Below, piece after piece: positions 1 through 28,600 of a stretch of 33,156 bases of DNA (positions are counted from its first letter, which is position 1; every line of letters starts with the position of its first letter). A program made the translations under genes and the position numbers. The notes below the pieces were generated by a model. The model did no database searches. It was given only the letters and a program-made list of their open reading frames with translations, and had not been told where the DNA came from. This DNA is from a virus: positions 1 to 33,156 of the IMG/VR virus record IMGVR_UViG_3300025476_000005; one strand, written 5' to 3'.

Positions 1-576
1 CGGCGCAAGGCCATCCTTAAAAACATCCGCGACACCCAGGAGAAAGACCAATGGGAGATCAAGGAGGAACTGGCCGAAGAGCGCATGATGGAATACAACA
101 TCCCGGTGCAGCGCGGCAACGCGCTGGAGGATGAGGCGCGTGAATACTACCAGGCAAAGACCGGCAACGTGGTGGCACAGGTGGGCTTCATCACCGACGA
201 TGAAGGACATATCGGGTGCTCGCCGGATGGGCTGATTATCGGTGATAACGCTGTGGCGATTCCCGCATGCTATATCAAGGGGTTAGAAATCAAGTGCCCC
301 ATGCCCAATACCCATCTTGGGTGGTTGCTTGATGGCACCTTGCCGGAAATCCACAAGTATCAGGTTCATGGATCGATGATCGTCACCGGACTGAGTGAGT
401 GGGTGTTCCTCTCATACTGCCCGGGTGAAGCCCCACTGCTTTTGACCGTGCAGCGCAACACTTTCACCGAGGAACTGGCAGCCGGCCTGCGCAACATGGT
501 GCGGGAAAAGCAGGAGATCAAGACCATCCTCAACAAACTGTGGGATGCGGAATTCAAACCCCAACCGACCCCGTGA
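1..576 (+). CDS. YqaJ-like phage recombination exonuclease (5' partial)
   Basis: The frame is open from base 1, so the N-terminus lies outside the window; ATG codons at 85/88 are internal. YqaJ/lambda-exonuclease-type proteins digest one strand of linear duplex DNA 5'->3' and work with a single-strand annealing protein. Visible signatures are RGNALEDEAR (family E in the R-GN-xE-xAR motif), the acidic SPDG motif after a GFI segment, and the catalytic E-x-K in LEIKCP, followed by the conserved H, QVHG and the aromatic WVFLSY strand. All are in the usual order of the PD-(D/E)XK fold. The annealing partner is not visible and may lie upstream. The next gene overlaps the stop by a GTGA junction, implying coupled translation. 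The family call is firm; the exact substrate is inferred. Confidence 0.85.
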   Translation, partial: RRKAILKNIRDTQEKDQWEIKEELAEERMMEYNIPVQRGNALEDEAREYYQAKTGNVVAQVGFITDDEGHIGCSPDGLIIGDNAVAIPACYIKGLEIKCPMPNTHLGWLLDGTLPEIHKYQVHGSMIVTGLSEWVFLSYCPGEAPLLLTVQRNTFTEELAAGLRNMVREKQEIKTILNKLWDAEFKPQPTP

Positions 577-1067
577 ACAACTCATCCCCTACAGGCAGGG
601 CCGTCAACGCGTTCAGCAACCTGGCCGCCACGGACAGGAAAGCATTCAAGGCGCTGCGCAAGATATACCAAGCGCAACTGCGCACCTTCCCCGCGCGCTT
701 GTCGCTCATGAGCGCCAGGGAGGTGGAGGAACGCTCGCAGGGCATGGAGGTGCCGCCGCTCTACGTGTGGAGGAGCCGCAACTTCATGGTGGCCGAATAC
801 CGCGAGGGAGACAACATGCGCCTGAGCGTCAACCGCACCCTGATCGACAACGAGGGCAACTGGCTGCAAGGCATCACCTGGGATGAACTCATGGAGTGCA
901 AGCGCCAGATCGGCTACGGCAACCTGTGGGCGATTGAGATATTCCCTGCCGACGAGCACATCGTGGACGTGGCACCGATGCGCCACTTGTGGATCGTGAA
1001 GATTCCGCCGATGGCGTGGGTGAAGGTGGACAAGGCGGTGAAACTTGAAGCGGAGGAAGCGCCATGA
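573..1067 (+). CDS. DUF7694-type phage protein
   Basis: A 164-residue protein if started at the GTG overlapping the previous stop (GTGA). An ATG at 540 in the same frame would add residues that are only a shadow of the upstream gene, so the GTG is preferred. The core reads NFMVAEYREG, RLSVNRT, W.QGITWDEL, KRQIGYG, AIEIFP and PMRHLWIV. I recognise this as the pattern of a small domain widespread in phage early regions (DUF7694); its biochemical role is not known. The N-terminal 40 residues look disordered. The position between exonuclease and resolvase genes suggests expression with the recombination/replication operon, but no function can be assigned. The following gene overlaps by 4 nt (ATGA). 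Confidence 0.7.
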   Translation: MNNSSPTGRAVNAFSNLAATDRKAFKALRKIYQAQLRTFPARLSLMSAREVEERSQGMEVPPLYVWRSRNFMVAEYREGDNMRLSVNRTLIDNEGNWLQGITWDELMECKRQIGYGNLWAIEIFPADEHIVDVAPMRHLWIVKIPPMAWVKVDKAVKLEAEEAP

Positions 1068-1636
1068 AGGATACGAAAATCACATGGTGTGACAGCACTA
1101 GAAACTTCTGGTCCGGTTGCAGCAAGGTCAGCCCGGCATGCGCTCATTGTTATGCCGAGACGATGGCAAAGCGCTTCCCACACTTTGGGAAATGGGGTGA
1201 TGGCAAACCCCGTGCATGGCACGGAGACGCCGCAGCCAAGGACAAGTCCAAGTGGCGCTGGGTGGATGAAACCGACGCGGGCCATCCGGTGTTGTATGAC
1301 GCGGAGCTTGGCGGCCATGACGTTCCGCCGGGAATTGCACGCAATGTCTTGGGCTATCATCTGCGGCCCTCGATCTTCCTGCCGAAAGTCCACTGGCGCA
1401 CGTTCTGCGAACTGACGCAGGTGCGGACGGAGCGCTTGCAGGACATCAGCGAGGCCGACTGTCTCGCCGAAGGCATCCATAAGGCCATAGATGGCGCATT
1501 CTACGGAGTGCAATACTTCATCGGCTACAATGACGCCGCCGGTGCCTACGCGGAACTGTGGGACTCGATCAATGGCAAAGGATCGTTTGACGCCAATCAA
1601 TTCGTGTGGGCGCTCACCTATAACTATCTCCCGTAA
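1064..1636 (+). CDS. Chimeric DUF5131 (Gp37/Gp68-like) N-terminus joined to ASCH-type C-terminus
   Basis: The ATG at 1064 overlaps the upstream TGA and is preceded by GGAGG, a good ribosome site. Residues 1-45 match the start of phage Gp37/Gp68 (DUF5131) proteins: TKITWCDSTRNFWSGC then CSKVSPACAHCYAE, a C-x6-C-x2-C set like a radical-SAM cluster. DUF5131 proteins are normally much longer; here the match ends after the KRF..FGKWG segment. The second half instead looks like the C-terminus of phage ASCH-domain proteins: RPSIFLPK, TQVRTERLQDISEADCLAEGI, LWDSINGKGSFDAN and a final FVWAL strand. The middle is low-similarity. The simplest reading is an in-frame fusion, possibly by deletion between two neighbouring genes. 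Whether the product is active is unknown, since neither domain looks complete. Confidence 0.65.
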   Translation: MKDTKITWCDSTRNFWSGCSKVSPACAHCYAETMAKRFPHFGKWGDGKPRAWHGDAAAKDKSKWRWVDETDAGHPVLYDAELGGHDVPPGIARNVLGYHLRPSIFLPKVHWRTFCELTQVRTERLQDISEADCLAEGIHKAIDGAFYGVQYFIGYNDAAGAYAELWDSINGKGSFDANQFVWALTYNYLP

Positions 1637-1663: not shown

Positions 1664-2236
1664 ATGAGAATCCAATCCCTCATCATCGACAGAAAACACA
1701 TAAGCTACACCCACACCATGAACGTCGGCCAGGACGACGAGACGGAGACGAGCGACACCTGCAAGCAGGCTCCGCTACCGGAACTCACCAACGCCTTCGG
1801 TGCCCTCAACCCGGTCATCTGCACCATCATGGGATGGCCCATGAGCTACGCGGAAGGGCTGAACGTGTTCAAGATCCAACTCAGCCACACCAAGCACGGA
1901 ACCCGCAGCGCCTGCTTCAAAATGTCCAAGGTCATTGAGTTGACCGGAGGATTACCCCACACGATGACAACCCCCTTTGTGCGCATCGACGAACCCGCTG
2001 ATGGTGAGAGCGGCAAGCGGGAACTCAAGGACGCCCATGTGCATCTCATCGAGTTGGTGCTGGTGGAGGTCTCCCGCTACATCAGCGGAGAGCGCAGCCA
2101 GCAGACGCTCAACTTCGACGAGGGCAAGGCCGGCATCAACGTGCTGGCCGACAAGGGCCGCGAGGATCCGAACCAAGGGGTGATCGACTTCCCCGAAGCG
2201 GAAGCCCCGGCCAGAAGGGGCCGCAAGAGCAAGTAA
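1664..2236 (+). CDS. Unrecognised phage early protein
   Basis: A 190-residue protein starting at ATG 1664 after an AC-rich leader (CAACACCAACC) without a Shine-Dalgarno. I do not recognise the family. The N-terminal half is mixed alpha/beta around NAFGALNPVICTIMGWP and FKIQLSHTKHGTRSACFKMSKV. The middle has a helical segment (DAHVHLIELVLVEVSRYI). The C-terminus ends in a basic PARRGRKSK tail after an acidic/proline stretch. No membrane segment or signal peptide is visible. It sits between recombination genes (exonuclease upstream, RecU-like resolvase 24 nt downstream), so a DNA-metabolism accessory role is possible but only inferred from position. Confidence 0.6.
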   Translation: MRIQSLIIDRKHISYTHTMNVGQDDETETSDTCKQAPLPELTNAFGALNPVICTIMGWPMSYAEGLNVFKIQLSHTKHGTRSACFKMSKVIELTGGLPHTMTTPFVRIDEPADGESGKRELKDAHVHLIELVLVEVSRYISGERSQQTLNFDEGKAGINVLADKGREDPNQGVIDFPEAEAPARRGRKSK

Positions 2237-3443: not shown

Positions 3444-4322
3444 ATGAACCGACCATCCCTCCAATTCTACCCTGCCGACTGGAGAAAAGACCCATCACTA
3501 CGCGCTTGTTCCATTGAGGCTCGCGGCATCTGGATCGACATGATTTGCATCATGCACGAGTCAGAAAATTACGGATTTCTTGAAATAAATTCGCGAAAAA
3601 TTTCAGAAAAAGCTCTCGCGTCGATGTGCGGAATTGCACCAAGAAAATGCACCAAATTGTTGCAGGAATTGGAAGAAAACGCAGTGTATTCCAGAGACGA
3701 AAGAGGGGTTATCTATTCACGCAGGATGTTGAAAGATCAACGATTGATCGAGGTTCGCAGGACATCAGGCACGATGGGAGGCAATCCTAATTTGGTTAAG
3801 CAAAAGGTTAAGCAAAATCCTGAAAATTTGGTTAACCAAACGTCCAACCAAAATCCAACCCCTTCTTCTGCATATGCATCTTCAACTTCGGTATACCCCC
3901 TACCCCCTGCAGGAATTCAGCAACCGGAACCAATCATTTTTCCAGAATTCCCCGACGAGGAAACCGGACCCGACCTGCCGACCCAAACGCGGGACCTGAT
4001 GCAGGAACTCAAGGACCGGATCAACGACGCGTATTCGAGCTGGAAAAAACGGCCACACTTCACGCGGGCCGAAATGGAAATTCTGCACGCCAATGCGCAC
4101 AGCCTCGCGGACATCACGGCGGATGACTGGGTTTTGTTGCGGGCCTACCTGCGGTGCGAGATTCCGCCCGAGTGGGGCAAGTTTTGGCAACCGGACGGAC
4201 GCGGAAAGTTCATGGAGACGATTTCCGACGTGCTGAGCAATGCCGACCGGTGGCGCGCGAAGTGCCGCAAAGAGAAAATCGAAACAGGAATCGAACCCCA
4301 ACCCAAGAAAACCAGCGCATGA
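3444..4322 (+). CDS. Winged-helix phage replication protein (initiator/helicase-loader type)
   Basis: A 292-residue protein starting at ATG 3444; an in-frame ATG at 3345 would add 33 poorly conserved residues. The N-terminus RPSLQFYPADWRKDP, then ACSIEARGIWIDMICIMHES, GFLEIN and a winged-helix segment (LASMCGIAPRKCTKLLQELEENAV..GVIYSRRM), is the layout of phage replication proteins encoded just before DnaB-type helicases. Residues ~115-170 form a Q/N/P/S-rich linker and the DNA here is noticeably AT-richer than its neighbours. The C-terminal part (LMQELKDRINDAYSSWKKRPHF..) is helical and could bind the helicase. It overlaps the helicase gene by ATGA, so translation is probably coupled. Initiator versus loader cannot be decided from sequence alone. 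Confidence 0.7.
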   Translation: MNRPSLQFYPADWRKDPSLRACSIEARGIWIDMICIMHESENYGFLEINSRKISEKALASMCGIAPRKCTKLLQELEENAVYSRDERGVIYSRRMLKDQRLIEVRRTSGTMGGNPNLVKQKVKQNPENLVNQTSNQNPTPSSAYASSTSVYPLPPAGIQQPEPIIFPEFPDEETGPDLPTQTRDLMQELKDRINDAYSSWKKRPHFTRAEMEILHANAHSLADITADDWVLLRAYLRCEIPPEWGKFWQPDGRGKFMETISDVLSNADRWRAKCRKEKIETGIEPQPKKTSA

Positions 4323-12862: not shown

Positions 12863-15528
12863 CGAATGATCCAGATCATCTGATTGCCGACTTTGCGGAC
12901 CTCGTGCGGAACCGCACGGACCAAGAATTGCTGGACATCTGTTATGCTTCCCCGGCGGCCCACTTTGCGTGTTTTTGCAAGATTCGGGACAAAAACAACG
13001 TCATTATTTCACCTACGCCCAACATCCTGCAGCTTCGCATGTCTGAAGCCTACGAGACGATGCGCCGGATGGAAGTGAAGGTGAGGATCATCGTGACCAA
13101 GCCCAGGCGGGCCGGGTGCTCGACCTTCGCGGCACACATCCTCTACCACCATGGGATGAAGGTGCCATGCGAGGGCATTGCCATCGCGGACAAGAAAGAG
13201 CACTCGGAAGCCCTGCTGAAAAAGCTCAAGAGCTACCAAGGTGCGGATTCCTACCCGTGGGAAGTGCAGATGATCGCCGACCCGCTGCACAGCATCGAGT
13301 GGAGCAACGGCACCAAGTGGAATGTGGACACTGCACAAAATCCAAACGCCAGCGTAGGCGACACCAACCAGCTTGGATTGTTCTCGGAAACCTCGAAGTG
13401 GCCTCAAACCACCCAGCGCAACGATAAGGTGGTCATGGCCGCGGTTCTGCCCACCTTGAGCGGGTCGGACTCGGTAGCGTTCTCAGAATCCACTCCGGAA
13501 GGTGCCGTGGGTTGGCAATACTCCACATGGCAAGTGGCGGTCACGCTGGAGGAATTCATACGGATGTTTGAGGCTGGCATCCGCCCGGAAGAGCAATGGG
13601 TGAAGATATTCGCGGGGTGGTGGGAATTCGGCGACAACCGCCGCAAGCAACCGGTATCGGCCCAGGAAATTGCCCACATTCAGGCCACGCTTGACGACAC
13701 CGAGCGGGACGAAATTGTTAAGTATGGATTGGATTGGGAGCAGGTGGCCTGGCGCCGGGACACGATCAAGAGCGTTTGTAACGGCGATCCCAAGGTGTTC
13801 AGCTACTATTACCCGAGCGACGATGTGTCGTGCTGGTTGGCCAGTGGCTCCCCGCGGTTCGACATGGGAATCCTCGTGGAGATGGAGAACAGAGCGCGAC
13901 TTATCACGCCCGACACTGGCTACCTGCTCACCCAAGACAGCGGGCAGGTAACATGGCAGAATACCCGCGACGGCACCGGGGACATCCTGGTGTGGGAGCA
14001 CCCCATCGAGCACTGCCGCTACCTGGTGACCATCGACCCGGCGACCGACGCCAGCCAGACGATAGGAGCGGATCCAGACAGGCACTCGGTGAGCGTGTGG
14101 CGGGACGGCTACCACGATGCGGATTTCGATAGGTGGCGGCCGGCTATGAAGGTGGCGAGGCTGCGCCCGCCATTCTATGGCGAGGGTGATGAGGTGGCCG
14201 GGCATGCGGCGCGGCTATCGCGCTTCTATGGCACCTGCATGACGGTAATCGAGATCAACTGCGGCCTCGACATCCTGCGGCTGCTCAAGGACAACGGAAT
14301 ACCCTGCCACAAGCGCCGACCAGATTCACACCGCACCGGCCAGATCGTCGAGCAATACGGATTCAAGATGACCGACAAGCAGGAGCGCAACGCGGTGATA
14401 GAGGGCTTCGCGGCAGCCATCAGGGACCGCGCCATCGACGTGCTGTGCCTGCATTCGATTCAGGAGTACAAGACGTTCATCGTCCGACCCAACGGACGCG
14501 CCGAGGCCGCCGGCGGTGCCCACGATGACGATTGTTTCATTCGAGGAACCATGATTTTGACGCCAAGCGGACAAGTTCCAATCGAAACACTCAAAGTGGG
14601 AAACATGGTAATCACCCGTGACGGACCAAAACCAATCGCCAGAACATTCGCTCGAATCAAACCCGTAATCTCGAACCTCGGACTAGTCGGAACAGCCACC
14701 CACCCAATCATCACCCCTGATGGAGAAAAACGCTTGTCAATGGTATCAGCAAGTAATACGCTATACATATGGAACACGACAACCAACCGACCAGAGAAAC
14801 TGTCATTTACGGAGGCAAAAAATACCATCGGCATCCACAGTCACAACGAAGACAATTCCGTGTTTATTTTTGGAGACATGATAAATGGAAGGCACCACCT
14901 GTTGCACTTCATCGGCAAATCTGGATTGACCATCATGGGGAAATTCCAATCGGCCACTTCGTTCATCACAAGGATGGCAACCCGCTCAATAATGACATTG
15001 GGAATCTGGAAACAATCGCTGCTGGCACCCACACCCGAATGCACATGCGGAATCCTGCACAAAAACGACTCATGCGTGAAGCCGGATACAGACAAACTGA
15101 ACGCATCGTCGCAGCGCTCAAAAAATGGAGAAGCCTTCCAGAATCAAAAGCAGCCATGCGGGAAATCTCACGCAAATCCCTACTCGTTACAGAACGTCAA
15201 CTGGCGTGCATTTGCTGTGGGACTCTTTTTCTATCCACCAATCGGTGTTCTAAGTTTTGTTCTAAAAGTTGTAGAACTTGGGTCACGAACCGCAAGGCTT
15301 TTGCAAAGAAGAAAGGTCTTCAACCTCCATGTGGAGGGTTCACACGAATACTTTGCCAACGGGATTCTGGTTCATAACTGTCTGGCCGACGCCATCGCCT
15401 GGCAGACGATGCCCAGCGCCACCGCCTACAAGCAGCACCGGGTGAAAAACATCGACCCGCCGGACATGGCCAAGCGCGGCAAATGCGGAGGCTGGCGCGA
15501 GGTCAACAATGTGCGGCGCGGGTGGTAA
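12859..15528 (+). CDS. terL: Terminase large subunit interrupted by an intein
   Basis: 889 codons, of which 282 are the intein, leaving a 607-residue terminase. The ATG at 12859 overlaps the terS stop; one at 12844 is less likely. ATPase part: VTKPRRAGCST (~79-89) is the Walker A-like loop and LFSETSKW the following acidic block. Nuclease part: VTIDPATDAS (~390), MTVIEINCGLDILR (~461) and the final acidic motif HDDD at 555-558, joined after splicing to CLADAIAW. The intein sits within this active-site motif, so the unspliced protein should lack nuclease function. The enzyme packages DNA into the prohead using the portal. Confidence 0.9.
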   Translation: MTNDPDHLIADFADLVRNRTDQELLDICYASPAAHFACFCKIRDKNNVIISPTPNILQLRMSEAYETMRRMEVKVRIIVTKPRRAGCSTFAAHILYHHGMKVPCEGIAIADKKEHSEALLKKLKSYQGADSYPWEVQMIADPLHSIEWSNGTKWNVDTAQNPNASVGDTNQLGLFSETSKWPQTTQRNDKVVMAAVLPTLSGSDSVAFSESTPEGAVGWQYSTWQVAVTLEEFIRMFEAGIRPEEQWVKIFAGWWEFGDNRRKQPVSAQEIAHIQATLDDTERDEIVKYGLDWEQVAWRRDTIKSVCNGDPKVFSYYYPSDDVSCWLASGSPRFDMGILVEMENRARLITPDTGYLLTQDSGQVTWQNTRDGTGDILVWEHPIEHCRYLVTIDPATDASQTIGADPDRHSVSVWRDGYHDADFDRWRPAMKVARLRPPFYGEGDEVAGHAARLSRFYGTCMTVIEINCGLDILRLLKDNGIPCHKRRPDSHRTGQIVEQYGFKMTDKQERNAVIEGFAAAIRDRAIDVLCLHSIQEYKTFIVRPNGRAEAAGGAHDDDCFIRGTMILTPSGQVPIETLKVGNMVITRDGPKPIARTFARIKPVISNLGLVGTATHPIITPDGEKRLSMVSASNTLYIWNTTTNRPEKLSFTEAKNTIGIHSHNEDNSVFIFGDMINGRHHLLHFIGKSGLTIMGKFQSATSFITRMATRSIMTLGIWKQSLLAPTPECTCGILHKNDSCVKPDTDKLNASSQRSKNGEAFQNQKQPCGKSHANPYSLQNVNWRAFAVGLFFYPPIGVLSFVLKVVELGSRTARLLQRRKVFNLHVEGSHEYFANGILVHNCLADAIAWQTMPSATAYKQHRVKNIDPPDMAKRGKCGGWREVNNVRRGW
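14533..15378 (+). mobile_element. Intein (Hint domain) in the terminase nuclease motif
   Basis: 282 residues from Cys (14533) to Asn (15376-15378); the +1 extein residue is Cys. Block A CFIRGTMILTPSGQVPIETL, block B GTATHPIITPDG with the TxxH motif, block F FNLHVEGSHEYFANG and block G ILVHNC are all present, so splicing should work. The central part in the terminase frame (about residues 90-255 of the intein) has no recognisable homing domain. In another frame the same DNA encodes an HNH endonuclease. Base composition is AT-richer than the flanking terminase. Confidence 0.9.
14769..15377 (+). CDS. HNH homing endonuclease nested out of frame in the intein
   Basis: 202 residues in a frame different from the terminase frame, entirely inside the intein; its TAA (15375-15377) ends one base before the intein does. 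RQFRVYFWRHDKWK and VALHRQIWIDHHGEIPIGHF are followed by VHHKDGNPLNNDIGNLETI and HTRMH, the HNH_3-type catalytic core found in phage homing endonucleases. Near the C-terminus CICCGTLF..CSKFCSKSC is the zinc finger often fused to these enzymes. A stop at 14754-14756 separates it from upstream sequence in its frame. ATG 14769 lacks a clear Shine-Dalgarno, so expression could depend on re-initiation or frameshifting. It presumably cleaves intein-less terL alleles; this is inferred. Confidence 0.82.
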   Translation: MEHDNQPTRETVIYGGKKYHRHPQSQRRQFRVYFWRHDKWKAPPVALHRQIWIDHHGEIPIGHFVHHKDGNPLNNDIGNLETIAAGTHTRMHMRNPAQKRLMREAGYRQTERIVAALKKWRSLPESKAAMREISRKSLLVTERQLACICCGTLFLSTNRCSKFCSKSCRTWVTNRKAFAKKKGLQPPCGGFTRILCQRDSGS

Positions 15529-16654: not shown

Positions 16655-19600
16655 ATGGGATCACGATTCAGGAGCTTGGCAGAAGATGAAGTGCAGGATT
16701 ATCTGGGCGAAGTGGCAGCAGGACGGGCGGGAATAGACCCGAATGCGGTGCGGATGAGTCAATCGAAAATCCCGAGCGAGGCGAACACGGGAGCCCGCAT
16801 GCTCGACCAGCAGCAACGCGACCAGCGGCGACAGGCAGCCATGGACGCAACGGAAGCCAACCGGCAGGCCAAGGAGGCCGAAAGGCTGGCCGAAGAGGAG
16901 CGCAAGCGGCAGGTGCGCATCGGCGTGAGCGAGGGACGGGCAAAGACGACCGACGTTCAAACCGGCAAGACCACGCTGGACACGCTGCCCACAGGTGCCC
17001 CCGCATTCCAGACGGGCGAGGTAGGCAAGCCGCGAGTGCTGCCGGCGGTGCAACAGGACAAGGCCAAGGTCATTGCAGGAGTTCCGGGATTCGGCGAACT
17101 GATGGTGAACGACCAGATCGTGCAGAAGACACCTTACGAACCCTCCCAAGGCAAAGCGCTCGTGCAGGACTACCGCAACCCGGAAGGACAAACCAAGTCC
17201 CAGGCACTGCCAACCCACACGGATCCAAAGACGGGACAGGTGACGGTCTCGACCAAGGACGCGTGGGGCGCACCGCAGAAAGTGGATGCGGGTGTTGACG
17301 AAGCACTGGCTGCCAAGGTTGCCAAGGATGCCGAGTTGGAACAGCGCAAGGCGGCCCTCGACCTGCGCTTGAACAACATCAACCAGACGCGGATGCAGTT
17401 TAATCCACGATGGAAAGGACCGGATGGAGCAAAGACCACCTTCGACAAAGCGGCCGAGGCTCTGAATAACTTCGAGGAAAAGCCCATTTTCGCGCGGGCA
17501 CAGGATCGGGAGGATACTCCCGGCGCGATCATGAAATGGGCAAAGGTGAACCCGAAGACGGGTCAGGCGGCGAGATACCAGAAAGATGTGATCGCCCGTG
17601 TGGACCCACTTAGCGGAGAGTCCAATATCACCCAGGACGAAGACGGCAATTTGGTCCGGGTGACATCGCACAAAGCTGGAGACCTCGTGGAATACGATCC
17701 TCTGGAACTGGTCAAGTGGCGGAAGGACAGGGCACAACTTCAAGCGGCTCACGACCGCGCCAAAGCCGAACACGACCGGCTGTTGCCGCAGGCCGAGCGC
17801 CTGAACGCGGCAAAATTCGAGGTGAAGGACCAGCATTTGAAGCTGGCGGCAGAAAAGATTCAGCACGAGCACGGGATGCCCCCGGAAGCCGCTGGTGCGG
17901 CTGAGACGCTGGCGGCGGCAGAGACCGGCGTCCAATCGCCATGGATGCGGGCGTGGAACGAGGCCACCGCGCCGGTGCCTGGTGTGATCGCCGCTGATTC
18001 CACAAAACCAGCACAAAACACCCCTGAAATTGCAAAAAACCAGCCGGAAATTGCACAAAACGGCCAAAAATTGCAACAACCACCTTCCGCGGGCGGCGCA
18101 GGCAGCGCAGCACCACCATCAGTTCAACCATCGGCGGCGACTACACCCGCCCCGCCCGCGGCCAAGGTATTTCCGACCAACCATCCCAACGTAAAGAACG
18201 ACGATGGATCCACAAGCAACGTGATTCTGGCGGGTGTCAACATCAATGGCAAGGAGCGGGTGATTCCAACGATGGTTGACGGCAAAAAGCTGTCTGTGAA
18301 GGAAGCAACCACTATCGCCATCAAGAACGGCATCGACAAATACCCGACGTTCAATACCCCGGAGGAAGGTGACGCATGGGCCAAAGCCAACCATGGCAAC
18401 ATCGACGAACAGGGAAACCTGAAGACCGCTGCAGCCCCGGCAACGGCCAAGAAGCCTTTGATTCCCCTCGACGACCCGGGCAAGATCGCGATGTTCTCCA
18501 AGGCGGCCGGCGGTCTCGACAAACCGGAGGAAATCAGCGTGGAGACGAGCCCCCAGGGCATCACCTGGCTAACACGCAAGACCAAGAACGGCGCGACGGA
18601 CAACATCGGCAGCGTGGCCAAGGACGCGCGGGGCAACCCCTATGTAATGCTCAGCAGTTCGCTCGAAGGCAGGGGTTTGCAAAAGCACGTGGACTACAGT
18701 GCCACGGATGGCATGCCGATCTATCTGAGAGAACCGGATGGATCTCAACCTATTGACCCGGTCAAAGGGGCGCAATATGTGGCCGACGTGTTCAAGGCAG
18801 TGCAAGACACCATTCCTGCGGGTCAGGATGCGGTGTGGGCGAAGTTGCAAGAGATGAAGGCCACTCCCGACCAGATCGCCATGCAGGTTTACCACGGGAA
18901 ACTCTCGGTGCAGGACGGACAATCCCTCATCAAGGGCGTCTATCCGGATCTCACATTAAAGGCGGATGATCCATTGGCTCCGGCAACTTTCGGCAAGTGG
19001 CTGTCCAAGCAGGATGCGGAAACCAAGGACGCATGGAACAAAGCCAAGGAGCCGGAAGAAAAGGATGCGGTAAAAAGCAAGTTCCTCGAAGATTGGTGGA
19101 GCAACAATGGATGGAAACCGGGCGTGGATGTAGGCACTCTCGAGGAAGCAATCAAGGTCGTTACCCCTGGCCGGCAGGCTGAAGGAACCATACGCACGAT
19201 CGCGCGCAAGTTTGACATGGAGATCGCGCCGGCCATTGGCACGCTGGTAGGCGGATTCATCGGCGCTCTGGTAGGAGCGGCGGCGGGCATCGAGACTGGC
19301 CCAGGTGCCGTGGTGACATCAGTAGGGGGAGCCATTGCCGGTGGCACGGCAACAGGAGTGGTTGTCGCAGAGATGCAGAAACGGATACTAACAGCCATCA
19401 TGGGAGAGAAGTGGGTGAAGACGAATGAACTCCAGATGGCGGCCAATGCCAGAAAACACGGAGAGGCCGACATGGTGGCAACGATGGCTCCATTGTTTAT
19501 TTCCTGCATGGGAGGAAACGTGGGCGTACCGGTACGCAATGTTGGAGGGGGATTCATCAGCAAGGCAATTACCGGAGCAGGCAAAGCGGCAACGGAAGAG

Positions 19601-22600
19601 GCTGCATTCTACAATATGGGTGCCGTGGCACGCGGACTACCGCAGCAGGCGATGAAGATCCCGATGGTTGAACGCATCGCACAGAACGCGGCCATCGGCA
19701 TGCGGGTGGATGCCAGCCGGGCGGCGCAAGAGAAGTATGTTGGAGGCAAGACCAATGAAGACGGATCGGAGATTTCTGTCATCAACAGCGCACTGCGGGG
19801 AGGCGTCTCGTTCGCGGCACTGGGATTCATGCCCGAATCCATCGTTATGGTCCCAACCGCCAAGCAGGTTTTGGAACGGGCAGTCGTGCATGGCGTGTCA
19901 AATGCCGCAGTCATGACGATGGCCGGCACCATGTATGACTCGCTGACAACCGGAAAACTTCCAGACTGGAACAAAGTGGCGAAGGAAACGGGAGGGACCA
20001 TCCCGCCATTCGTTGTTCAAAGTCTGGTCATGGGTGTCCTGCACCGTTCGTGGAGCGGACGCAGTGACAAAACTGGCACCGTGGATCCGAACTCCCCCGC
20101 GCCAACAGGCACCGGAACCACGACGCCTCCGACCAAAGGACCGCAATCCGGTTTCAGAAACGTCACTCCAAAAGCGCCAAAACCAACCGTTCCTCAAGAA
20201 CCTCTCACCGCCGAGCAAGCGGTCATCATTGAAACAAACCCGGCCAAGGTGGCGGAAATGCACCCCAACGATTACGCCAAGTGGCTGTCCCACAATGTGA
20301 CGTTGGAGCCGGGCGATCAAGTTGCATCCACCGAAGCGCTCGCCAACGTGCAGACCGCCATCACCGCGGCCCGCACACGGGGCGACACCGCCACCGAGCA
20401 GGTTCTTACGGCTCAAATCCACGCATCCACCCAGCGCACCGACTGGACCGCTGAAGAGTTAGGCAGCGACGATCCTGAATTTATCGAGCGGATCAACAAC
20501 GATGCGCGGGATTTCAACCAATCCCTCGCCGACACCCGCACGCGCCTTGGAATACCTGAAGCGCCACAGGTTCAAGCGCCAACCCCCAACCAACCCGCAT
20601 CCGCGCCACCAACGGTTGGAACGATGGTGGAATATAGCCGATCCGACGGGCGAGTAGAACAGGGGAAACTCGTCAAGCTGGCAGACGAACAGTCTGGTTA
20701 CATGATCGAACGCGCCGATGGTTCGACGGTTGAAATCCCCGCTAACAGAGAAATCAGAACCCCACAAAGCAATGGGCAAAACATACAAGGACCGGCCGGA
20801 GCGCAAACCCCTGCGCAAGCTGCACAAAACCCGCCAGCAGCCCCGACAACGGGTGAGCTTGGAGGACCTTCCGGAGAAGGATCAGGAACGAAACCAGCGC
20901 CGCCAGGGGAACCACCGGTAACCGCAGGGAAGCACGATGATTTGCCAGCGGGAACCATCGTTCGTTCCGACGTTTACCATGGCGAAGGCGACATCACCTT
21001 GACGGGACCGGCCCAACAGGGGCCGAACGGGCCGGAATATCCGGCATACTTCTCAGGCACGCAGCGCTACGGGATGGTTCAAGCCCGTCACATCACGAAC
21101 ATTGCAACCACGCCGGCCAAGTCAACCGGAACCACGCCGGATGCAGTGCAATCCCCGAAGAATGGGGAAGCGCAGCCGTCAACCGCGTCAACCGAAACGT
21201 CAACCACAAACCCGGAAGCAAAGCCCACCGAACCCGCGCAACCACCGCGCCGGGTGGCATTCCACCATCCGGGCCTTGGCGGCCAGGCCACGGGCGAGGT
21301 CATCGAGACACGGCCCGATGGAAGGTTGAGAATCAAGGCCGACGATCACAAGAATGTCATCGTCACGCTGAAACCCAGCGATGTGATCGACATCGAGTCA
21401 ACCCCTTCCGCTGCCATCAAGGCACCGCAAGAAACAACCCCAACCCCAACCGACAATGGCCCTACCGAAAGCAAAGCCAGCGCCGCCCAAAGCCCCGATC
21501 AAACAGGGCAACCCGTTCGCAAAACTGCCCCCGATGAAGGGCAAAATGCCAATGGGGAAAAAGGGCAAGTGCTGACCCCATCCGAACCAGCCGCCGGGGA
21601 GACATCAACTTCGGCGGCTACCAAGGGCAGGACATCCCCCAGGCAGATCGAGGCGTTCGACCAAGGCAACGTGCCAGCCGATGGCCGCGAGCCGGTGAGA
21701 GTGAATGAAGTGGATGCCAATGGAGACCCGATGTTCAAGGTGGGCGAGAAGGTCATCGTGGACGGCGAGGAAATGACGGTATCGAAAGTCCAGATGTCCA
21801 AGGATTCGCTTGGCAACGAGGATGTGGACTACGTGGTGTTGAACGACGGCAGCAAGTTTGGCCGGCAAGTGCTCAAGAGCGGGGATACCGTGTGGACCGA
21901 GACCGATGATTCACCGACTCCCAAGGAGGAAACGAAAGCGCAAGCAGTGGAGCAGGCGGCCAGCGAAACGAACACCGAACCCACCGAGGCGCAAAAGGAG
22001 GCGGGAAACTATGCCAAGGGCAAGGTGACACTCCATGGCATGACGGTTTCCATCGAGAATCCCAAAGGATCCACGCGTTCCGGCACCGACAAGAACGGCA
22101 AGCCGTGGAGTGTGGAGATGAAAAGTCACTATGGGTATTTCCTGGGTAGTGAAGGCCGCGATAAGCAACATGTGGACGTGTTTATCGGTCCCAACCCGGA
22201 TGGGAAGAAAGCATTCGTGGTAAATCAGATTGACCCGGCCACCGGACGCTTCGACGAGCACAAGGTTATGCTGGCCTATGATTCCAGACAGGAAGCCATC
22301 GCAGGCTATCAAGATAATTACAAACCCGGATGGAAAGGACTTGGCAGCATCGTGGAAACCGACGTGGACACGCTGCGCGAATGGCTGAAAACCGAAGACA
22401 CCAAGAAGCCAGCCAAGAAGGAAGACTTCAAGCCAACCGTCAAGGAATCCTTAACAGTTCAACCGCCCACCCCCGGCACGCCTGAGTTCAAGGCGCTGCC
22501 ACAAGCGGAGAAACAGGCGGCGGTGAAGGCTTTCGCGGAAAGCAAGAAAGCGGAGCGGGAGAATGCCAGACCCGAGCGATTGACTCCCGCCGACTTCCAG

Positions 22601-25600
22601 AAGACCGCCGAGTTCGTGCACGAGAAGGGCAAGAGAATGCTCATGGTCCGCATCGGAAACGCCATGCACACGATCAATGACCAGAGAAACGGCCAACTCA
22701 CCAAGCCCGCTGGAGAAGTCCTTGCCGATCTTCACAAGGCGCTGATCCAACAAAGCGTTGACCTGCTGAAAGCGGACCTGGCCGATGCAAGCCCGCAGAG
22801 CGTGGCTTCGACCAAGAACCTCGCCAAGACCCGCCTGAAAGATGGTGGCATGTATTCCGTTTCCGCCGATGCGGTGGACGCCTATGACATCAAGTTGCCG
22901 GATGGATACGTTAGAAAGGGTGACTTGTATGTGAGGGAAGCGGCAAAGGAAAACCCACCCGCGCCCGCTCCCGCCACCACACTGGAGGAAGTCACAGCGG
23001 CTTCGGCGCATCTTCCTGAAGGTGTATTTCAAGATGTGATCGATGGCATGGATCGGGAGATTGAACGTGCGCGAACCAAGGTGGAAAATCTCCAGAAGAT
23101 CAACGAACGCCTCAATGAGCAATCGAGCAAAGTCCCCGGCTCATTTGTTACCGGACGTTCCAATCAGCACAAGGGTTTGATGAAGCAACGCGGTGCCCTC
23201 AATGACCGCATGAGCAAAGCGTTCACTCTATGGCAAGACGCGGAAAAACATCTCCGCGAGCTTGAAGAAAAACGTGCGGGATACGTGTCTGGAGAACGGC
23301 ATGAAAACGGCCAGCCGCGAGCCAACTCTCCATCACGGCAAGCGGCGACATCCGCTGTTGGTTCCTACGGCGATTACCTTCGCGCCACGGTCAAAAAGGG
23401 TGACAGGGTGACATTCGTTGCCAACCCGGATGCCGGTGGCAGCATCGTCAAGAGCGTGAACAAAAAAACGATCACGCTGGAAGGTGGATCATCGTGGAGT
23501 TTTGACTACTTCATGCCATGGAAGGACGGCAGGGAGATGACCAAGGCGGAATTGAAGGAAGACATTAAGGCGTGGAGAGATAAGCAACCGCCATCAGATT
23601 CCACCGTGCAGGAGCCCGGCGCTCCGTTTGGCGACGCATTAGGGAAAGAAAAGGAACGTCTGTTTGCCACCGCACCTCGTGGCAATGACAGACACCCGCT
23701 GGCACCGAACGGACAGAGATCGAACCTGGCGGAAGATCAATGGTCAGCGGCGCGGACGGATGGGTTCAAGAAAGACTTCGGAGATTGGGAGACTCTGGAT
23801 GTTCAAAGAAGATTGGATTTAATGTCACCCACGAAGATTACGGTTCCCGATTCGTGGAGAGGGAAATCAATCGAAGAAATGCGCCAGTCAATGGCCGAAA
23901 TCCTTGACGAGATGGTTAGAAATAAAGCCGTCATTGAACATCCCGAAATCGGCACGATCCACATTGGACGGCGAGGTGCTGGGAAAACGGAAAACACATC
24001 GGCAGACCCGGCCAAAATTCTGATAGCATCCGATTTGGAAAACACTATCCCGCGTTCGATTAAGTCAGGATTCTCGAAGAGCAAAGAACAAGGCGTGGAA
24101 GGGTACACAACACTTCTTCTTCCCGTCAATGTGGACGGACACGAACTGACTGCTATTTTCACCATCAGAAAACAGTCCGATGGTCAATGGTATTACAACA
24201 CCGTGGCTGTCGCTGACAAAGAAATGAGACCGGGTTCATATGAATCGCCTGGTGCGCTTGCGCGCCCTCTAGGGAAGACTCCAATCACCGGCCTCGATGG
24301 ATTCATACGCCGGGAATTGAAGCGCGTCAACCCGGAAAGTTTCCAGGGCAAGCTGGACTCAAACGGCGAGCCGCTGCCCGCCGAGGTGGACCGGTGGCTT
24401 GTGAAGCAGAAAGACGCCGCGCCCGACCGGGTCGAGGAAAGCCAGGTGCCGCTTGACGCATCGGAGGTTTCCACCTACCTTGCAGCCAATGGCACTCCAG
24501 CAAGCGTCATCAAAGCCGAAAGTGAGCGAGTATCCCAAGCCTTGGAACAACATCGATCCGGCGGATTGGCCGAGGATGGAAAGCCGTATTCGCAAGGTGA
24601 TTTCTTCGCACAGCCAGAATCCGCGCCATCGCCGAAGGGTGGGGCAACTCAGGTTCCTGCTGCCAGCCCCGGAACAAAGCCCAAGACTGGAACCAAACTT
24701 CCATCCGTTTCAGAAGACCTCTACGCCGGCCTGACCGGCGATTGGCAGGCGCTCGCCCGCGAGGTGAATGACAAGGGGCGGGCGGTGCAGATTTTGCCCC
24801 AGCTCATCAAACATGAGATTCCCTATTGGAACCCGGTGGGCACGCGCATCGAGTCCCCGGCGGATGTTCATGCGCTCATGATCCCCATCCGCTCGCCTTT
24901 CTTCGAGTCGGTCAAGGTCATGATCCTGGACGGACAGAACAATATCGTTGCAGCACGCATTATTACCATTGGAAGCGTGAATGAATCCGTGGCTTCAACA
25001 GGGGAAATTATGGGCGAGTTGGCGAGGCTGCGCGAGGAAACCGGGAAGAAATACCAGAGCATCATCCTCAGTCACAACCATCCATCCGGTGACCCGTCGC
25101 CCTCATCCCATGATGATATTATCACCCGTCGCTTGAGAGAGGCTGCCGATATGACGGGATGGGAGGTGCTCGATCACATCATCACCAACGGCGAGACCTA
25201 CCACAGTTACCGCGAGTCCGGAATGATGTACTCCTCGACGGTCAACGAGGAAAAGCCATTCACGCCACGACGCATGGGGCCTCTGCCAGACAAGAACTTT
25301 CCAATGAAAGCGGATTGGGAAGTGGCGTTGCCATCGAAACTCCAGTCGATGGATCAACCGGAGAAGATCGCCGAGTTGGCGAAGTTCCTGAGAAACGGGA
25401 ACCCGGACGCGGCCCATTTGCTCATGATGAACACGCGGATGAATCTGCTGGGCATCGAGCGCATGACATCCGAACAGGCCATGGATAGCCAATACCTGGC
25501 GCAACGCATCGCCAACGCCAGGGGATCGTTTGGAGCGTATGCCGTGGCCATCGATCTCCCGGCGGGAATCACTGGCGACAACTCAAAAATGCACCTGTTG

Positions 25601-28600
25601 GCAATGCGGGTGCAGGCAATCAAGGACAGCATGGGAGTTCGAGTGGTTGACATTTCATCCGTGGATCCTGAAGGGCCGGGGTATTACAGCGCGATGGAGG
25701 AAGGTGTGTTGAGAGAACCCGCCCGTGACTTCGGGAAGGATGAGAACCAGCCCGACCTATTCGCCGCCACACGCGCGCCAGACGCCACGCAGAGGCTGGG
25801 CAGCGTGAAGGTGGGCACCATGTCAGCCCTCGGCGCTTACCGCACGCTCACGGCCAAACGGGACGCGGGCAAGGCACTCACGGCGGATGAGCATCAGAAG
25901 TTGCTGGATGCCGAACAGGCGCTTGGTCAGAAGCTGGCGTTCGACATGGATGCGGTGAAAGGGCAAGAACAACCCGCCGCGCTTCCAGGCGGCGAGCAAT
26001 CGGCCCGCCCGGCACCCGTCAAATCCCCGCGCGAGGTGCAGCAGGGCATGGGCTTCGGCAACGAGGTGGCCAAGAGCGGACAGATGAGCCTGTTTGAAGG
26101 GGAGAAACCTTTCGGGAAACATCCCGCCGACGTGTGGAAGGATTTCCCGCATGTGCAATGGATGGTGCGCTTCAACCATGTCAGCAACATCGGCGGCCCG
26201 CGCATCACGGTGCCGGATGCCAAATATGGAACACGCAGCTTCAATGCGGACTGGTATTTTGCCAAGGGTCGAGGGGAAGCCAGACCTGAAGAGCGGGAAA
26301 AATCAGCCCGCCAACTCATCAACCGCATTGTCAATGCCACGCCGAGGGGAAACCTCGACTCCATGCGCGATTTCATCAAGGCCAATCCCGATGCCATTCT
26401 GGTTCCAGTGCGCGGATTGGAAGAACCCAACACGGCATCCAACATCATTCCTGAGAGATTCGCTAGATTCCTATCAATCTTTGGCGGAAATCCAGTCAAT
26501 GAAACCGTCCACAAGACCAACACCAGCCACAACACCGGCAAGGACGCCAAGAGCCGTTTGTTCACCGTGCATGAATTCGATGGCGCGATAGAACCCGGAA
26601 AGGATTACATCATCGTTGACGATGTTTCCACCACCGGGGCGACCGCCTACTATCTGGCCCGCCACATCGCCAGCCAAGGTGGGCGTGTTGTCGGCGACAT
26701 CCAAATGGGACTGACACCGCGCGGCGAAATGGATGCAAGGAAGCAGCGGGCGTTTGTCGGCGACGAACACATCATGGCGATGAGCGATGCCACAAAAAAA
26801 TCCTTGCAAGCCAAAGGCGATGATGCCACTTTGAACGCCGTTGTTCAACAACACGGAATCGCTTATGACTGGCACACCCTTACCGACGCCCTTGGCCGAG
26901 CCCTCAACGCCAACTGGAGCACAGCATCCCGTGCTGCGGGAATGCCTGGAGTCGGGACGCAGGTTCGAGGCGGAACACAAAGCGGGCGACCCGTTGATTA
27001 TGGACGCGCTGGCGAAGTTCCGAGGCGACTCCCCGCCTTCCCCGGAGAGCGCGAAGCAGCAGGACTAGACCGGCCCGCACCGGGCGAGACACGCATCACG
27101 CCACCCGCCGAAGGCGATGGACAGATGCGCTTGCTGGAGCCTGAGACTCCCTTCGGTGCCAACAGAAAAGGAATTACCGAACATCTAGTCCTGCCGATAC
27201 CTGAAAACAAGGAACGCCCAGCGTCTTTGTCCGAGGATAGAAACCCGCATTCCTTGGCGGATCTCCAGGAATTTGTACACGAGCCCGCGGTTCCGTTCGG
27301 TGCCAGCAAAGACGCCATCAAGCAGGCCCTCGCCAAACTGCCGCCGGTCTATCGCGGGGTGTTCGAGGCGGTGCAATCCGGCCTATCTACGCCCGAGGTG
27401 ATGGAACGCTTCAAGGTGAACGAAAAGGCGGTGGGCAACATCGTGTCCCAGGTGCATGCGCGAATCGCGGCCGCCACCGGTGAACCCGCGCCGGCAGAGA
27501 GTCAGGCGCCGCCGGCCTCGACACCGCCGCCGACCACCACGCCAAAGGCGCAACCCGTGGAAACCCCCAAGACCGCCACCGTTGAAGCACCGCCCAAACA
27601 GACGGACAAGGAGATGGTGGACCGAGCCTACTCAGGTCTCCCGGCGCTCATGCGCTCCAAGATCCCCGGCCTAGACATCGTTGGCGACATCACCCACGGC
27701 ATCAAATCGTTGTTGCTGCCCACATCCAACGGCCCGGGCGAACTTCACGCGGCGGAACTGCTTGGCAGACGCATCGGCGAGATGCACCGCCGCCAGGAAT
27801 CCGTGAATGGACAGTTTGAAAAATCGTGGAAGACGTTTGAAAAACTCGGTGTCCACCGCGAGGGATTGCCCATCGACGAAAACCAAGGCATCAAGTTCAT
27901 GTCCGACCGCTCGTCGGGCCGCCCGATGAGTCCCGAGATGCAGGCGATCAACGACATGGCGGACAAGCAGGACGCCATGCGCGTGAAACTCTTGGAAGAA
28001 GCTGGCGTGCCACTGCAAACCGTGCGGCAGGATTACTTCCCCGGAATCTGGACCAAGGAAAGCCGCCGGGCTTTCAACATGGCCATGGATGAAGCGAACG
28101 AAGCGGGCATCATTCCCGCGGGCACCGGCGTCAACGAAGCCACGCCAGAACAGAAAGCATGGGTGAAGGCACGGGTAGATGAACTGCTCGACCTGCGCCA
28201 GGGATCGGACGCCACGCCCGGTAACGATTGGCTGGCCATGATCGCCAAGCGGCCATTCCCCGGCGGCGAGTCATTCAAGAAAAGCAAGGTGTTCGACCAG
28301 GACATCAAGACCGCCTTTGAATTCGGATTGCGCCCGACGAGTTACAACCCGGTGGATCAGATGAAACTCAAGTGGGCGGAAATGGATCGTTCCATCATGG
28401 CCCATCAATACCTGCGTGATTTGTCGCGGGAAGGATTGGTCAAAGTGCTGGATCCATTCGCCGCAATCCCCGAGGGATGGCAGGAAATCCAAGACAACAA
28501 GGTGGGCAAGATCTACGGATCACCCACGATCACCGTTCCGGAATACGTCAACAAGGCGGTCTATGACGGGTTGATGAAGGTCGCGGAAAACATCGGCATC

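Follow-up and report, generated by a model that had tools for sequence, protein, structure and literature searches.

The DUF5131-ASCH reading frame and its neighbors

The window analyzed here is a stretch of 33,156 bases from a virus record (IMG/VR IMGVR_UViG_3300025476_000005), in which an open reading frame (ORF) of 190 aa runs from an ATG start without internal stop on the plus strand (1064-1636). Its start codon and the stop codon of the DUF7694 gene upstream (573-1067, plus strand) overlap within the bases ATGA (1064-1067), and the downstream gene (1664-2236, plus strand) is without a family match. The setting is a recombination/replication region, in which a YqaJ-type exonuclease lies two genes before the ORF and is matched on the other side by a protein of phrog_843 (Holliday junction resolvase) and a helicase of the DnaB type. 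Judged by its sequence, the ORF was confirmed as a chimera, hereafter the fusion, in which a three-cysteine front derived from DUF5131 is joined to the back half of a phage ASCH-type protein. Nowhere else in the 33,156 bases of the window was a further DUF5131 or ASCH-half ORF found.

A search with the neighboring proteins returned one useful relative, locus L253, whose counterpart of the downstream gene is 69% identical; next to that counterpart there is neither a fusion nor a gene of the DUF5131 or phrog_874 type. Elsewhere in the same locus (9730-10215) lies a separate 161-aa protein that by eye resembles an ordinary ASCH protein. Relatives of DUF7694 were also seen near ASCH genes in loci L004, L195, and L205, suggesting that DUF7694, DUF5131, and ASCH genes may travel together.

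Two parental families in one protein

The front of the fusion, residues 1-50 (1064-1213, plus strand) with a weaker match to about residue 64-67, resembles DUF5131 (PF07505; the phage Gp37/Gp68 family, phrog_2045), including its C-x6-C-x2-C arrangement, here formed by C19, C26, and C29 (codons at 1118-1120, 1139-1141, and 1148-1150, plus strand). Pfam matched DUF5131 to residues 4-45 (E 1.7e-13; 51.1 bits versus a cut-off of 28.9), a match that covers only profile positions 2-43 of 243 and not the whole length; all five of the intact relatives scanned span the profile from position 1 or 2 to 243, and about four fifths of DUF5131 is missing from the fusion. Among PHROGs, phrog_2045 matched residues 1-78 (E 6.6e-18), and a profile that we built from 158 relatives of 221-449 aa aligned with residues 1-67, with 80.7 bits for residues 1-50 versus 84.8 for the whole fusion. 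When conserved columns were defined as those reaching at least 90% among 161 relatives, the front kept 12 of 12, the three cysteines included, as did 133 of the 161 relatives themselves.

Radical SAM enzymes, with cluster-binding cysteines in a TIM-type barrel, are a lead for DUF5131. An intact relative matched the radical SAM model TIGR04470 weakly (E 0.0057, far below the model cut-off), and one phage record carries a radical SAM annotation. The PADLOC candidate-defense models PDC-M30B (E 1.4e-11) and PDC-M41B (E 2.7e-11) matched residues 1-42 of the fusion (window 1064-1189). Gp37Gp68 is named in one report of the literature searched, where a table labels it an ssDNA-annealing protein (PMC5463345). 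The word DUF5131 was not found in the literature searched, and literature searches for the fusion or for a DUF5131/ASCH pair returned no relevant paper.

The back half, residues 97-190 (1352-1633, plus strand), firmly matches the phage ASCH-type proteins of phrog_874. That PHROG profile aligned its positions 144-255 of 277 with residues 65-187 (E 2.4e-25), residues 88-190 alone giving 89.6 bits versus 90.5, and our own profile of 81 relatives aligned with residues 42-187 and scored 96.2 bits for residues 97-190 versus 100.4 for the whole fusion. Since the score lies nearly all within residues 1-50 and 97-190, the breakpoint should fall somewhere in residues 51-96 (1214-1351, plus strand), a junction zone that adds about 4 bits to either profile and is weakly assignable to either parent. 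A preliminary description, made from the letters of the window, had assigned about the first 45 residues to DUF5131 and the end from about residue 95 to a phage ASCH-type family. Both assignments held approximately, the front being firm to about residue 50 and weak to 64, and the end being firm from about residue 97.

The Pfam ASCH model (PF04266) found no match in the fusion ORF and matched one of four intact relatives scanned, below the cut-off, and a profile of 55 ASCH relatives found no solved structure by sequence; we draw the label "ASCH-type" from the phrog_874 relatives and from the structure predicted for one of the intact relatives. Within the retained part, the fusion keeps 18 of 24 conserved columns, placing it second lowest of 82, as the 81 relatives keep between 17 and 24 and one of them is lower. 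Four of the six changes are between similar residues, and their BLOSUM62 sum is +5, compared with an average of -6.6 for random single-step changes, none of which was as high in 2,000 trials.

A shorter family, phrog_18361 (92 positions), matched residues 106-187 (E 4.6e-11) and, like the fusion, comprises the back half without the ASCH front, although its profile differs from the fusion in having no DUF5131 front. In locus L133, the ASCH match of an ORF at 3818-4309 starts at profile position 109, behind a different front and without the ASCH front, and no KTxTRR occurs in any plus frame within 900 nt upstream. Both cases point to ASCH back halves existing with no front of their own kind.

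This missing front is where the KTxTRR motif sits, near the N-terminus: among 136 distinct ORFs with an ASCH half, 111 have it ahead of the matched part. The ASCH motif is given more loosely as G-x-K-x-x-[ETS]-x-R in one source (PMC9599836), and six of the 25 ORFs without an exact KTxTRR carry this pattern, so that 117 of the 136 have one or the other; the fusion has neither. The remaining 19 include ten motif variants (Lys kept in all ten, the second Thr in nine, and the last Arg in seven), two ORFs with the motif in another frame, three that begin at a contig end, the frontless ORF of L133, and three that were not read. Relatives without exact KTxTRR were also considered as further fusions and rejected, as the eight full-length ones that were read are motif variants without a DUF5131 front.

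In E. coli YqfB, an ac4C amidohydrolase with an ASCH fold, Lys21, Thr24, and Arg26 are each essential, with inactive Ala mutants, and Glu74 is important (PMC6972931). By their spacing, the Lys, second Thr, and last Arg of the phage motif are likely the counterparts of these three residues, all of which the fusion lacks. The position in the fusion that would correspond to the YqfB-type Glu differs by method, with E69 in one alignment and D55 in the profile.

The AlphaFold2 model of the fusion (68 alignment rows) reached a mean pLDDT of 66.8 and a pTM of 0.52, with block means of 41-65 for residues 1-60, values below 50 for residues 64-104, and confident modeling from residue 111 (81 for residues 111-120, then 85-93 from residue 121). 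By this evidence, the front would have no fold of its own. The top PDB matches of the model were ASCH proteins, none of them significant (E 1.0 and above), among which the match to YqfB had an E of 1.6 over 82 columns. The model of an intact ASCH relative, in contrast, had a mean pLDDT of 84 and matched best to 3s9x (E 5.9e-4, the only one below 0.001), 1t62 (E 2.3e-3) and, at rank 3, the YqfB structure 9kyf (E 3.6e-3). The fusion lacks a complete beta-barrel, the first strands and helix (residues 3-27 of the intact model) belonging to the missing part.

Gene pairs, the shared junction, and the probable origin of the fusion

DUF5131 and ASCH-half ORFs occur together in 59 of the fetched loci, which gives 62 pairs. 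The two genes share a strand in every pair, with none on opposite strands, and DUF5131 comes first in 40 and ASCH in 22. These counts include three loci present twice (L120/L167, L060/L179, and L035/L185) and three with two pairs each (L008, L018, and L019), and they represent no natural frequency, as a locus was fetched for containing one gene or the other. In the 27 DUF5131-first pairs shorter than 1.6 kb, the points homologous to those joined in the fusion lie 991-1,591 nt apart, compared with 282 nt in the fusion. The script-set ASCH start falls within 400 nt in 20 DUF5131-first pairs; 16 of these have their genes end to end to within 20 nt, and in 12, including L204 from a verrucomicrobial MAG, the overlap is exactly 4 nt. 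DUF5131 and ASCH genes recur as a tightly packed pair, often overlapping by 4 nt.

An identical 190-aa protein is encoded in a second IMG/VR record, 3300025447_000119 (L277), which differs from the window by 7 mismatches in 9,432 bp; three fall in the opening 20 bases and none in the fusion gene. In a profile survey of ORFs across 284 records, the only ORFs to combine both halves in a single frame were that of the window and its counterparts in copies or sub-loci of the same two records. None of 125 matching phage records covered 80% of the fusion query, and the two of 493 matching plasmid records that did are ordinary ASCH proteins with KTQTRR. Of 387 genomes belonging to the same phylum as a verrucomicrobial MAG, 29 gave matches, none of which spanned both halves. 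A junction pattern in the DNA of viral contigs, requiring 168-228 nt between two motifs, returned 13 and 17 stretches; both halves were present in that of L277 alone. Three of the collection scans supplied their top 80 candidates, out of 563, 562, and 568 that were confirmed, and the rarity of the fusion holds within the records so examined. The earlier view that both parents are normally separate, longer proteins was thus borne out, the search that it proposed for the same junction in other phages yielding the second record alone among those examined.

We propose that the ancestor of this locus would have carried a full DUF5131 gene with a full phage ASCH gene closely after it, and that one deletion, some 0.7-1.3 kb long and preserving the frame, would have joined the DUF5131 front (about 50-64 codons) to the ASCH back half. 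The product would have kept the three-cysteine loop of DUF5131 along with the ASCH back half, and lost the KTxTRR-bearing front of ASCH together with about four fifths of DUF5131; because of these losses neither parental activity is expected, and the product most likely has none. It may have persisted because the kept frame leaves translation of the operon undisturbed, or through some binding that the remnant retains. We consider this sequence of events, in which two neighbors were fused in frame, their activities were lost, and a remnant persisted, to be the probable one. The preliminary description had likewise offered the product of a deletion as one of two options, an idea supported by how the two genes are arranged in other loci. 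Counted against the deletion are the 22 of 62 pairs in the opposite order and the fact that KTxTRR is not invariant in relatives, and the search found no closely related locus with the genes intact at this site, L253, the nearest neighborhood relative, having neither gene there.

Two further explanations were considered. An error in sequencing or assembly could have spliced together two pieces of a genuine DUF5131-ASCH pair, a reading favored by the occurrence of the fusion in two records only, which may not come from independent samples; yet the second record, with its 7 differences in 9,432 positions, must be a separate assembly, and it has the same junction, across which the frame stays open, and we regard an artefact as very improbable. 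Alternatively, the fusion could be a diverged member of one established family whose halves always occur together, as the overlap of the phrog_874 and phrog_2045 matches in residues 65-78 might suggest. The full-length homologs that such a family implies, which the preliminary description had named as evidence against a chimera, were looked for in phage, plasmid, virus-contig, and genome searches and not found among the records examined: no phage record reached 80% cover, the two plasmid records that did were ordinary ASCH proteins, no matching genome spanned both halves, and, its own copies aside, the fusion is the sole two-half ORF in 284 records. These searches disfavor an established family, which we rate the least credible of the readings.

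More weight attaches to the possibility that the fusion is a minimal protein under selection, in which the cysteine loop would coordinate a metal or cluster, the ASCH half, possibly as a dimer with a completed barrel, would bind a nucleobase or nucleic acid, and the whole would act as a small regulator or decoy. The open frame and its ATGA overlap with the upstream gene, the intact set of conserved DUF5131 columns, the mild substitutions, the confidently modeled ASCH half, and the identical protein in two records all speak for selection, and the reading has some precedent because phrog_18361 and the ORF of L133 likewise hold an ASCH back half alone. Set against this are a front that is not confidently folded, residues 64-104 below a pLDDT of 50, the missing KTxTRR, an ASCH half second lowest in conserved columns, and the finding of no diverged homolog with this junction among 284 records, so that we hold a selected minimal fusion to be possible but considerably less than probable. 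A related idea, that an inner deletion in a two-gene module left a new, selected mini-protein with the cysteine loop of a possibly radical-SAM-like protein and the back half of an ASCH protein, working as a binder or dominant-negative version of that module, we think unlikely; if true, it would mean that DUF5131 and ASCH proteins ordinarily act either upon one another or upon a common target.

The same evidence bears on the age of the proposed deletion. The open frame, the 12 of 12 DUF5131 columns, and the mild ASCH changes argue against old decay, and an open frame with a complete cysteine loop and mild changes would fit a recent event or residual function. A recently fixed remnant appears likelier than a selected mini-protein, and the fusion is most likely a non-catalytic remnant, harmless to its operon because the reading frame was kept. 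Between the decayed product and the new minimal fusion that the preliminary description had offered, the evidence leans toward loss of both parental functions. Fusion of neighbors by deletion is a familiar kind of event, and the recurrent DUF5131-ASCH pair is a side result of its study. The fusion points to this tightly packed pair, and as a natural deletion it would show which pieces one phage keeps, providing a handle for asking whether DUF5131 and ASCH proteins cooperate.

Other features of the window

Farther along the window, a large ORF (12844-15528, plus strand) preceded by a terminase small subunit has a Hint region, and an HNH_3 endonuclease ORF (E 1.4e-13; 14769-15377, plus strand) lies within it in another frame; the large ORF may encode an intein-bearing large terminase. 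A single ORF of 4,715 codons (16655-30802, plus strand) takes up more than 40% of the record and presumably encodes a polyvalent protein.
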